Assembly: GCF_025515305.1 (NCBI RefSeq)
Contig: NZ_JAOPHT010000004.1
Coordinates: 287,226 to 351,225, forward strand
Direction of reading: 5' to 3'
DNA length: 64,000 bases
From: Roseicyclus sediminis
Lineage (GTDB): Bacteria > Pseudomonadota > Alphaproteobacteria > Rhodobacterales > Rhodobacteraceae
A model generated the notes under the pieces. That model was not told where the DNA came from, did no database searches, and saw only the letters and a list, made by a program, of their open reading frames with translations. The position numbers were made by a program, and so were the translations under genes. Each line of letters starts with the position of its first letter. Position 1 is the stretch's first letter. Below are positions 6,889 through 8,935 of the stretch, piece after piece.

Positions 6889-7029
6889 ATGTGGAGGCGC
6901 GCAACCCTTTGGGAGTCGGTCACGCGGGGCTTCGGCCCGGCGCTGGCGGCGCAGAGGCCCGTGCCCGTGCCGAAGCACGCCGCCGATCCGATGATGTTCG
7001 AGATGGGCGCAGTCGCGATTCCCGACTGA
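6889..7029 (+). CDS. Possible 46-residue small protein, unknown
   Basis: An open frame from ATG 6889 to TGA 7029 encodes MWRRATLWESVTRGFGPALA and then a Pro/Met-rich tail ending GAVAIPD. Third positions are G/C-rich as in the neighbouring genes. No convincing Shine-Dalgarno precedes it and I do not recognise the family. It occupies most of the space between the Lrp gene and the RNA array on the opposite strand. It may be a real small protein or chance. Confidence 0.3.
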   Translation: MWRRATLWESVTRGFGPALAAQRPVPVPKHAADPMMFEMGAVAIPD

Positions 7030-7072
7030 CCGTGCCTCATGTCGCCGCACCGATGCTTTCGACAAAAAAAAT

Positions 7073-7109
7073 GGCGGTGATGCCGAGGGAGGAGGAGGGC
7101 ATCACCGCC
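7073..7109 (-). terminator. Array hairpin 6: cuckoo hairpin doubling as intrinsic terminator
   Basis: A perfect 12-bp stem (arms 7073-7084 and 7098-7109) closes a 13-nt loop carrying CUCCUCCUCCC. On the minus strand it is followed by a U-run (A8 at 7064-7071 on the plus strand). It ends the DUF1127-sRNA transcript. Confidence 0.85.
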
Positions 7110-7117
7110 AGATTTCA

Positions 7118-7140
7118 GCGCCAAAGGGAGGAGGAGGCGC
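7118..7140 (-). ncRNA. Array hairpin 5
   Basis: A 5-bp GC-only stem (7118-7122 with 7136-7140) and a loop with the CCUCCUCCCU motif. It is the shortest stem in the array and lies 8 nt from the terminating hairpin, so the two may form one two-hairpin RNA. Confidence 0.65.
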
Positions 7141-7150
7141 CGATTTGGGT

Positions 7151-7186
7151 GGCGGCGAACCCAAGGGAGGAGGAGGGTTCGCCGCC
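7151..7186 (-). ncRNA. Array hairpin 4
   Basis: A perfect 12-bp stem (GGCGGCGAACCC at 7151-7162 with its complement at 7175-7186) and a 12-nt loop with CCUCCUCCCUU. Confidence 0.75.
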
Positions 7187-7194
7187 GGTCGTCA

Positions 7195-7220
7195 CGGTCC
7201 CAAGGGAGGAGGAGGGACCG
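7195..7220 (-). ncRNA. Array hairpin 3
   Basis: A perfect 7-bp stem (CGGTCCC at 7195-7201 with GGGACCG at 7214-7220) and a 12-nt loop with the anti-Shine-Dalgarno motif. A 33-nt spacer separates it from hairpin 2, the longest gap in the array. Confidence 0.75.
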
Positions 7221-7253
7221 ATCCTTCCCCGGACCTGCGGGCCCGGGATCCTG

Positions 7254-7291
7254 GCGGATGCACCCCAAGGGAGGAGGAGAGATGCACCCGC
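7254..7291 (-). ncRNA. Array hairpin 2 (strand-specific G:U pair)
   Basis: Arms GCGGATGCA (7254-7262) and TGCACCCGC (7283-7291) pair at 8 of 9 positions as DNA. Transcribed from the minus strand, the odd pair becomes a G:U wobble and the 9-bp stem is complete. On the plus strand it would be an A-C mismatch. The loop holds the CCUCCUCCC motif. Confidence 0.7.
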
Positions 7292-7295
7292 AATT

Positions 7296-7328
7296 CCCGC
7301 GACCCCAAGGGAGGAGGGGGCCGTCGGG
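7296..7328 (-). ncRNA. Array hairpin 1 (next to the DUF1127 stop)
   Basis: It begins about 10 nt after the DUF1127 stop codon. On the minus strand it folds as CCCG/CGGG, one bulged A, CGG/UCG (with one G:U pair) and CCCC/GGGG around a loop with the CUCCUCCC motif. Only 4 nt separate it from hairpin 2. Confidence 0.65.
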
Positions 7329-7338
7329 AAATCTCGTT

Positions 7339-7560
7339 TCAGTCCGCCTTGCCGTATACGGCCTGGAAGGCGGCGCCCCGGAGCATCGACCGGTTCAGGC
7401 CGAGGTCATCCAGTTCCCGGCCCGAGAGCTCGTTCAGCTCGGCCAGGGTGCGATGGTAAAGCCGCCATGCGGCGTATGCTTCTGCGGCCTGCTTGCCGAT
7501 TTCGGCAAGGCGCGCGCCTACAGAAATGCTTGTGGTCCGGTTGCTCGATACGTAAGCCAT
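7339..7560 (-). CDS. ccaF1: DUF1127 protein, CcaF1-like, upstream of the sRNA array
   Basis: A 73-residue protein whose C-terminal half (LYHRTLAELNELSGRELDDL, then GLNRSMLRGAAFQAVYG) is the DUF1127 (YjiS-like) motif. GAGG precedes the ATG at 7560. It is the first full gene of a minus-strand transcript that continues into the hairpin array 10 nt after its stop. The R. sphaeroides homologue in the same position, CcaF1, is described as an RNA-binding protein affecting sRNA maturation and RNA turnover. The same role is inferred here from sequence family and context. Confidence 0.85.
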   Translation of the reverse strand: MAYVSSNRTTSISVGARLAEIGKQAAEAYAAWRLYHRTLAELNELSGRELDDLGLNRSMLRGAAFQAVYGKAD

Positions 7561-7567
7561 AGCGTCC

Positions 7568-7612
7568 TCAAATCTTGATGCGGCGAACCCGAATGGCCCG
7601 GCGCTGGAGCAT
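7568..7612 (-). CDS. Possible 14-codon arginine-rich leader peptide
   Basis: The frame MLQRRAIRVRRIKI ends 7 nt before the DUF1127 start codon. Six of its 14 residues are Arg or Lys. GGGGTGA stands six bases before its ATG and could serve as a ribosome site. It lies downstream of the predicted promoter, so it would be in the transcript. It may be a translated leader coupling to the DUF1127 gene, or chance; I know no family for it. Confidence 0.3.
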   Translation of the reverse strand: MLQRRAIRVRRIKI

Positions 7613-7635
7613 TTCGATCACCCCGTTACGATTGG

Positions 7636-7663
7636 AAGATAAGGAAATGCTGCAGGTGCACAA
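7636..7663 (-). promoter_or_regulatory. Candidate promoter of the DUF1127-sRNA transcript
   Basis: On the minus strand TTGTGC (7663-7658), a 16-bp spacer and TATCTT (7641-7636) form a -35/-10 pair, placing transcription start near 7629, about 70 nt before the DUF1127 gene. The pattern could suit the housekeeping or the RpoH-type sigma factors known to drive the R. sphaeroides locus; the sequence alone does not decide. Confidence 0.4.
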
Positions 7664-7744
7664 TAACCGAGGGTTCAATGCTGCTATGCAGAAACCGCAT
7701 AGGTCGTCGCGCCCTTGCGCGCTAGGGCCCGAAGCGCTTTGAGC

Positions 7745-8935
7745 ATGATCGTCGGCGGCGCCTTCCGGGACCCCCAGTTCGCCCGCTTTTTCGTCGGGGT
7801 CTTCTTCGCCGTGCAGGCGATCTGGGTGCAGCGGGTGACACTGTCCTGGCTTGCCTGGGAGCGGACGGGTTCGGCGGGATTCGTCGGGATGGTCGCCGCG
7901 TTCAGCCTCGCGCCGACGCTGCTGGCGGGCCCGGTCTTCGGTGTCATGGCCGATCGCGTGAACATCCGCCGGGCGGCGCTGGTCACGAACGCGCTGATGG
8001 CGGCGGTCCTCGCCGTCCTTGCGCTCGCCCTGCCGCTGGTGGGCCCCTGGGGCGTGGCGGCGGCGGCGCTCTGCATCGGCCTCGTGACCTCCGCCCATCA
8101 TCCGGTCCGGATGTCGCTGGGGCCGCGTCTGGTTCCGCGCGAGATGGTGCAACACGTGGTCTCGGCCACGGCGCTGAACTTCAACCTCGCGCGCCTCGTG
8201 GCGCCGGTCGCCGCGGGCTGGATCATCGCGGGCTTCGGCGCGGGCGCGGCGCTCTGGGTCGCGGTGCTGTGCTACATGCCGATGCTGGCGGTGCTGCCTG
8301 CGCTGCGCCCCCGCGACCTGCCGCCGCGGCCGCGCGCGCCCTACCTGTCCGAGCTGCGCGACGGGGTCCGCTTCGCCCGCGACACGCCCCTGATCCGCGA
8401 GGCGCTGTTGCTGACGCTGGTCTTCGCCACGCTGGTGCGCGGTGGGCTCGAGCTTTTGCCGGTGCTGGCCGACGGGGCCTTCGGGCAGGGGGCGGCGGGC
8501 CTCGGGATGCTGACCGCCGCGGCCGGTGCCGGTGCGCTGCTGTCGGCCTCGTTCAAGGCCTTCGGGATGGGCGATGTCTCCGCCGGCATTCCCCGCAGCG
8601 TCGTTGTGGCGATGACATTGGGCTTCGCGGCGATCATCGGCATGGGGCTCGCGCCGTACTGGCCGATGGCGCTCGGGGCGACAGCGCTCGCCGGGTTCTG
8701 TGCGACATGGTGCGGCGTCAGCCTGCAGGCCGCGATCCAGACCGACCTTCCGGACGCCTATCGTGGCCGGGTCATGAGCCTCTGGACGGTCGTCGGCTTC
8801 GGCACGGTGGCCATCGGCGCGGCCTTCATCGGCGCGGTCGCGGAGATCATGCAGATCGGCCGGGCGCTGGCCGTGGCGGGGGTCGTCGGCCTTCTCGTCA
8901 TCGCGGTGTGGCGTCTTGGGGGTGCGCGCGCCTGA
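7745..8935 (+). CDS. MFS transporter (MFS_3/enterobactin-exporter-like)
   Basis: A 396-residue major-facilitator protein with about ten to twelve hydrophobic segments. FRDPQFARFFVGVFF opens the first helix, VMADRVNIRRAAL is the cytoplasmic loop 2-3 motif (compare GxxaDRxgRR), and FATLVRGGLELLPVL begins the second half. It resembles exporters of the MFS_3 family, which move drugs or siderophores outward by proton antiport. The substrate is not readable. A TTG ten codons upstream (7715) is an alternative start; neither start has a strong ribosome site. It is divergent from the DUF1127 locus. Confidence 0.8.
   Translation: MIVGGAFRDPQFARFFVGVFFAVQAIWVQRVTLSWLAWERTGSAGFVGMVAAFSLAPTLLAGPVFGVMADRVNIRRAALVTNALMAAVLAVLALALPLVGPWGVAAAALCIGLVTSAHHPVRMSLGPRLVPREMVQHVVSATALNFNLARLVAPVAAGWIIAGFGAGAALWVAVLCYMPMLAVLPALRPRDLPPRPRAPYLSELRDGVRFARDTPLIREALLLTLVFATLVRGGLELLPVLADGAFGQGAAGLGMLTAAAGAGALLSASFKAFGMGDVSAGIPRSVVVAMTLGFAAIIGMGLAPYWPMALGATALAGFCATWCGVSLQAAIQTDLPDAYRGRVMSLWTVVGFGTVAIGAAFIGAVAEIMQIGRALAVAGVVGLLVIAVWRLGGARA

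Follow-up and report, generated by a model that had tools for sequence, protein, structure and literature searches.

The hairpin array behind a DUF1127 gene in Roseicyclus sediminis raises the questions of what kind of locus it is, whether six hairpins make it an unusual one, and which signals might control it. We assign it, with a probability of roughly 0.8, to the CIN1/CcsR type of operon, predicted to yield a single RNA from an RpoH-like promoter that is cut into small RNAs lowering the translation of uptake and carbon genes, as in the CcaF1/CcsR1-4 precedent of R. sphaeroides (PMC10253847, PMC8307010, PMC8625941). The DUF1127 gene and the six hairpins would be transcribed together from this promoter, and the precursor would be cut in its single-stranded linkers, by RNase E with help from the DUF1127 protein if the homology to CcaF1-CcsR1-4 extends to processing. 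The CCUCCUCCC loops would then bind strong Shine-Dalgarno sequences (GGGAGGAG) and block ribosome binding, by homology to NfeR1 of S. meliloti, whose loops silence ntrB and ABC-transporter mRNAs (PMC10746234), and translation of uptake and carbon-metabolism genes would be lowered.

Within the window (the whole 64-kb stretch of DNA analysed), the exact motif CCTCCTCCC occurs six times on the minus strand between 7087 and 7317, each copy inside a hairpin loop, and these hairpins lie in register, 39-65 nt apart (Table 1). The motif is present seven times in the window as a whole, compared with a mean of 1.29 and a maximum of 4 in 100 shuffles, and 59 times in the genome (6 in the array and 53 elsewhere), with 5 of 30 examined copies outside the array having stems at least as good as that of H1. 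The non-random part is six hairpins in register after a DUF1127 gene, not any single hairpin. This short gene lies directly upstream on the same strand, 10 nt from the first stem base at 7328, and its product is 71-78% identical to the proteins of three genus relatives and had no NCBIfam match. The original prediction had described an anti-Shine-Dalgarno (CcsR/cuckoo-type) array transcribed from the minus strand behind a DUF1127 gene; its six minus-strand hairpins with a common CCUCCUCCC loop are confirmed (7072-7328), and the array is supported by loops, stems and gene order. The stems were also rightly called unrelated to each other, since each left arm scored best with its own right arm in all six rows of a cross-pairing matrix, and the proposed stem strength of 5 to 12 bp was roughly right, the computed stems being 7 (11), 13, 7, 12, 8 and 13 bp. 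G:U pairs, cited as backing minus-strand transcription, agree with that sense of transcription, and are found in three stems (H1, H2 and H5), not two. The view that the last hairpin doubles as a terminator was borne out, with a U8 tract (7064-7071) directly abutting H6; together they form a likely intrinsic (Rho-independent) terminator, which our terminator scan did not list because its loop limit was 8.

Table 1. Features of the DUF1127 locus, in the order of predicted minus-strand transcription (positions are those of the window).
Feature	Position	Strand	Description	Basis
Inverted repeat	7687..7699	-	TGCGGTTTCTGCA (TGCR-N5-YGCA), overlaps site A; rival LysR-type box	
Site A	7681..7691	-	Palindrome CTGCATAGCAG (flanked TTTCTGCATAGCAGCATTG); candidate PhaR-type operator	Fits CTGCNNNGCAG
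Site B	7648..7663	-	TTGTGCACCTGCAGCA, conserved sequence covering the -35 region	Pattern in 73/80 loci
Candidate promoter	7636..7663	-	RpoHI/RpoHII type, TTG 7661-7663, TAT 7639-7641, TTGTGC-N16-TATCTT	Sequence, spacing
DUF1127 gene	7339..7560	-	Small protein, 73 aa, CcaF1-like	PF06568, E 1.8e-13
H1	7296..7328	-	Weak hairpin, 7 (+4) bp; with H2, pair 1	11 bp counting the outer part beyond a bulge
H2	7254..7291	-	Strong hairpin, 13 bp	Pair 1: CcsR1 38.0 bits, E 1.3e-7
Spacer hairpin	7228..7247	-	8 bp, without the motif, between pairs 1 and 2	
H3	7195..7220	-	Weak hairpin, 7 bp; with H4, pair 2	
H4	7151..7186	-	Strong hairpin, 12 bp	Pair 2: CcsR1 32.0 bits
H5	7115..7143	-	Weak hairpin, 8 bp; with H6, pair 3	
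H6	7064..7110	-	Strong hairpin, 13 bp, plus U8	Pair 3: CcsR1 28.9 bits

Stem quality differs along the array: compared with arm-shuffled versions, H1 lies about 1.5 standard deviations above the mean, H3 and H5 about 2 to 2.5, and H2, H4 and H6 at least 5. Compensatory change in relatives, a point on which the original prediction had declared itself open to failure, was found in two genus relatives with six hairpins each. Comparison of the window with G002 gave 4 compensatory pairs, 7 one-sided changes and 8 broken pairs, the last mostly in pair 2, and comparison with G004 gave 4, 5 and 2, respectively.

The covariance-model search proposed along with that prediction brought no Rfam family to its gathering score in the window. 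The best matches were ar14 (RF02344), which reached 50.1 and 30.6 bits (E 4.6e-8; gathering score 58.8), and CcsR1 (RF02791), which matched all three pairs with the scores given in Table 1 (gathering score 65.3). CcsR1 exceeded its cut-off in none of the five genus genomes searched, and a match below the cut-off was seen in 1 of 14 control genomes, that of Thermus composti. The 6C RNA (RF01066) was rejected on a weak match (E 0.036; 31.7 versus 47 bits); two hairpins with C-rich loops are common to both, and the likeness is likely one of shape only. Among known systems, the R. sphaeroides operon (CcaF1-CcsR1-4, CIN1, cuckoo RNAs) has the same DUF1127 gene, paired CCUCCUCCC-loop hairpins, end terminator and TTG/TAT promoter pattern, although the window falls below the Rfam CcsR1 threshold. 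The alpha-r14/NfeR1 RNAs of Sinorhizobium (SmelA075, SmelA099) likewise present this loop on three or four hairpins whose stems are unrelated (PMC3927594, PMC10746234), whereas NfeR1 stands alone as a small RNA under its own promoter, controlled by LsrB/NtrC, and no DUF1127 gene is mentioned in its description (PMC10746234). AbcR1/2 resemble the array in their anti-Shine-Dalgarno-type loops acting on transport mRNAs and in their LysR-type regulator (PMC10746234, PMC7486931), but have a different gene neighbourhood and no repeated CCUCCUCCC array.

The two-hairpin unit of CIN1/CcsR-type loci is present in the window, where stem lengths alternate between weak and strong (7/13, 7/12 and 8/13 bp). 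The same order prevails elsewhere: across 81 loci including the window, the second hairpin was the stronger in 118 of 128 isolated pairs, i.e. pairs set apart by longer gaps (mean stem score 21.2 versus 31.2). Of 77 arrays with at least three hairpins, 54 end in their strongest one (13.1 expected), and the final hairpin has a T tract behind it in 45 of 79 arrays, compared with 13 of 449 internal hairpins. Where pairs are separated by 55-80 nt, the gap contains a small hairpin of its own: 95 of 96 fold below -4 kcal/mol and 85 of 96 have z below -1 (mononucleotide shuffles), with a trace of the motif in 16. The example at 7228-7247 (fold -16.5 kcal/mol, z -2.6) is absent from the original account, and no spacer hairpin lies between H4 and H5 in the window (39 nt from motif to motif) or at the same position in G002 and G004 (35 and 44 nt). 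Compared with the R. sphaeroides operon, one of two spacers is missing. These spacers could be the sites where cleavage separates the RNAs, and we predict one two-hairpin RNA together with either two more pairs or one four-hairpin RNA (H3-H6), which may stay together because the spacer between H4 and H5 is absent. The earlier proposal of three two-hairpin RNAs is accordingly upheld as regards pairs as units, and may fail as regards their number.

The proposal that this array is expanded, a larger version of the R. sphaeroides locus, fails because it set six hairpins against four RNAs, each of which apparently has two. CcsR1-4 are four RNAs (PMC10253847, PMC8307010), and about eight hairpins would be implied for them, since two motif hairpins make up the Rfam CcsR1 model alignment and RS0680a of R. 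sphaeroides is described as having two stem loops with the motif in each (PMC3927594). The window has six, not these implied eight. Hairpins were counted at related loci, as the original prediction had suggested, and six was the commonest array size among the relatives examined. In the 80 named DUF1127 loci (the top 80 of 456 confirmed ones when ranked by similarity to the window's DUF1127 protein), counts ranged from 0 to 24 with a median of 6, obtained with a finder whose minimum was 5 bp and a score of 12 and which undercounts weak hairpins; 18 loci had six and 31 had more, and 78 had at least two anti-Shine-Dalgarno hairpins downstream. Undercounting is exemplified by G010, with 15 exact motifs and 13 called hairpins, and by G001, in which a further CCTTCCTCCC hairpin was missed. 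Within the genus, counts were 9, 6, 8 and 6, with 6 in the window; the genus/family genome set and the named-locus set overlap (e.g. G003 is L065 and G004 is L068). Rhodobacter sp. SW2 (L079) has eight hairpins in four pairs, and Alexandriicola marinus (L143:3234-4399) has 24 called hairpins in near-identical blocks of three behind its DUF1127 gene, the first being a doubtful 5-bp call. The locus is an ordinary-sized CIN1/CcsR-type array, which corrects the impression that six hairpins is unusual, and the pair unit, the spacers between pairs and the varied hairpin number make both dosage and processing testable.

Turning to predicted targets, the array loop pairs with GGGAGGAG at -16.3 kcal/mol, more strongly than what we take to be the 3' end of 16S rRNA (-10.6 kcal/mol). 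The arrangement GGGAGGAG-N4-12-ATG occurs 33 times in the genome, compared with 3 for the reversed pattern, strong Shine-Dalgarno sequences being expected in front of genes anyway. Transport functions were assigned to 8 of 23 scanned proteins behind GGGAGGAG (30 loci fetched) and to none of 17 behind AAGGAGA (30 loci fetched of 96 matches), in sets that are small, picked by Shine-Dalgarno match and unevenly filtered (7/30 and 13/30 loci, respectively, left out as short, internal, duplicate or antisense-looking frames). The eight comprise three ABC permeases, an NMT1-type binding protein, two TctC proteins, an ABC ATPase and MnhB, while an E1 dehydrogenase (PF00676), the start of an acetyl-CoA synthetase and an FGGY kinase are among the other proteins led by GGGAGGAG. 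CcsR affects pyruvate dehydrogenase in R. sphaeroides. The comparison is no more than consistent with an action of such RNAs on uptake genes (PMC10746234).

The candidate promoter has its TTG and TAT 22 nt apart and resembles the RpoHI/RpoHII pattern of TTG at -35 and TAT at -12 (PMC10673084), the ccaF1 promoter of R. sphaeroides being reportedly RpoHI/RpoHII-dependent (PMC10253847); a sigma-70 consensus scan of 7000-7760 gave no match. A TTG[TC]GC anchor aligns a conserved upstream block in 75 of 81 loci, with the consensus ATGCA-n5-TGCATRGCNGCATTG...ATTGTGCAnnYGCAGCATTnnCCTATnTT and with palindromes of the TGCTGC-N3-GCAGCA type upstream of the -35 element. In comparison with control stretches from the same loci, which are mostly coding, TTGTGCAnnYGCAGCA, which overlaps the TTG/TAT core, occurs in 73 of 80 named loci (controls 2/414), the inverted repeat TGCR-N5-YGCA in 65 of 80 upstream regions (14/414), and CTGCNNNGCAG in the 450 nt preceding the gene at 42 of 81 loci (6/345; shuffles mean 1.5, maximum 7). 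About 50 nt from the -35 region of the operon, a gene frame (7715-8935 (+), 406 aa, by eye MFS-like) begins on the opposite strand and runs the other way, so the block could serve this frame as well as the operon. As far as a partial literature search goes, two things are new, the arrangement of spacers and pairs over many loci and the PhaR-like block in the promoter, and such a block was not met in the descriptions of the R. sphaeroides operon in PMC10253847, PMC8307010 and PMC8625941. The block offers a cheap and concrete test of PhaR or LysR-type control besides RpoH.

A tentative candidate for reading it is PhaR, the polyhydroxybutyrate-sensing repressor: granules would take up PhaR, the operon would be released and its RNAs would throttle carbon uptake and acetyl-CoA supply. 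Such control would be an added input to the CIN1/CcsR explanation, whose RNA mechanism stays, and if true it would tie carbon storage to anti-Shine-Dalgarno RNAs. CTGCNNNGCAG is described as the R. sphaeroides PhaR site, and S. meliloti provides the precedent of a PhaR-controlled small RNA, MmgR (PMC12542648). Two marks of a PhaR-regulon member are present here, namely CTGCNNNGCAG in the promoter (site A) and a PhaR homologue encoded in the genome (TIGR01848, E 6.4e-45), and both site A and the -35 element recur upstream of related loci at the frequencies given above. Both elements resemble sites at phaP: the genome's own phaP promoter has two CTGC-N3-GCAG palindromes (CTGC-ACT/AGT-GCAG) together with GACGCAATCGCAGCA, and that of G003 has TTTGTGCAGATGCAGCA. 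The phaR gene itself, which in this genome sits behind a phasin-like gene, was found in 24 of the 25 family genomes and in 47 of the 50 named ones; 44 of these 47 have the -35 element and none of the three without phaR (L072, L075 and L090) does, and G007, a complete single-contig genome without phaR, lacks it as well.

Several observations count against PhaR. The phaR-less loci seem to form one clade, so a single event may account for the joint absence of phaR and the -35 element; three of the four phaR-less genomes may be incomplete, and the element is absent from G011, L083, L107 and L133, which do have phaR. Most loci carry ATA or ATG at the centre of site A, whereas phaP and phaR sites are mostly R-N-Y, and CTGCNNNGCAG lies up to 1.4 kb upstream in only 10 of 19 phaR loci examined, the GC-N4-GCAGCA element in only 4 of 15. 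Position alone identifies the phasin gene, which matched nothing in Pfam or NCBIfam, and the genome has 20 copies of CTGCNNNGCAGCA compared with 11 of the reversed pattern. The notion that PhaR alone reads the upstream block is weakened by phaR-less genomes (G007, L072 and L075), which keep the TGCR-N5-YGCA repeat. Elsewhere in the genome, CTGCNNNGCAGCA occurs close to the genes for BhcR/BhcA, a UDP-glucose dehydrogenase, a GalU-like protein, a CitE-like lyase and the ATP synthase delta subunit, and, among the 20, the ATA centre of site A is common only to that of the GalU-like gene, whose frame is preceded, at a distance of 34 nt, by the CTGCATAGCAGCA also found in the operon promoter (L258, G000:C22:15778-15790). 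A CTGCACTGCAGCA palindrome between bhcR and bhcA, of the beta-hydroxyaspartate cycle (L268, G000:C37:87129-87141), is possibly a further PhaR-type site. No link between PhaR and CcsR or DUF1127 was found among the literature matches listed, and PMC9230146 mentions both DUF1127 and PhaR, but apart. That PhaR control holds throughout the Rhodobacteraceae, with granules pulling PhaR off an operator over the RpoH promoter and the array then shutting strongly translated uptake, pyruvate and acetyl-CoA genes, is possible but doubtful; were PhaR control true, stress and carbon surplus would feed one small-RNA array, with hairpin number (2 to 24) setting the dose.

The phaR-less genomes that keep the repeat also favour an alternative we consider unlikely, in which not PhaR but a LysR-type activator of the LsrB/VtlR kind occupies this repeat, some 30 nt before the -35 element, and activates the operon in the way that LsrB activates NfeR1. 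The repeat is predicted to lie near -65, which matches the LsrB site of the nfeR1 promoter (TGCA-N6-GCAT at -72 to -57; PMC10746234), a sequence that it resembles, and its enrichment over control stretches is that given above; the VtlR box is quoted for Agrobacterium/Brucella as GCAT-N3-TG-N3-T. However, LsrB has been called unique to Rhizobiales (PMC11975290), and no LysR-like frame, and with it no LsrB/VtlR ortholog by trxB neighbourhood, was recognised by eye in the ORF list for the 6.5 kb around trxB in this genome.

It is improbable that the hairpins only stabilise the 3' end of the DUF1127 mRNA and end transcription, as the strongest hairpin being the last, followed by U8, and the wide variation in hairpin number might suggest, given that the loop is constant while the stems change, that such loops silence mRNAs in S. 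meliloti (PMC10746234) and that in R. sphaeroides the flhR mRNA is acted on by CcsR RNAs (PMC8307010). That the array is a mobile or DNA-level repeat lacking any RNA role, as its tandem layout and the repeated three-hairpin blocks of L143 might suggest, is scarcely credible given a single array per genome here (one place with 4 motif pairs), compensatory changes and a fixed place behind DUF1127.

Read from the plus strand, the array gives GGGAGGAG, and behind one of the copies an ATG opens a frame of 98-106 aa over the DUF1127 gene (7258-7578 (+)), which is probably due to chance.
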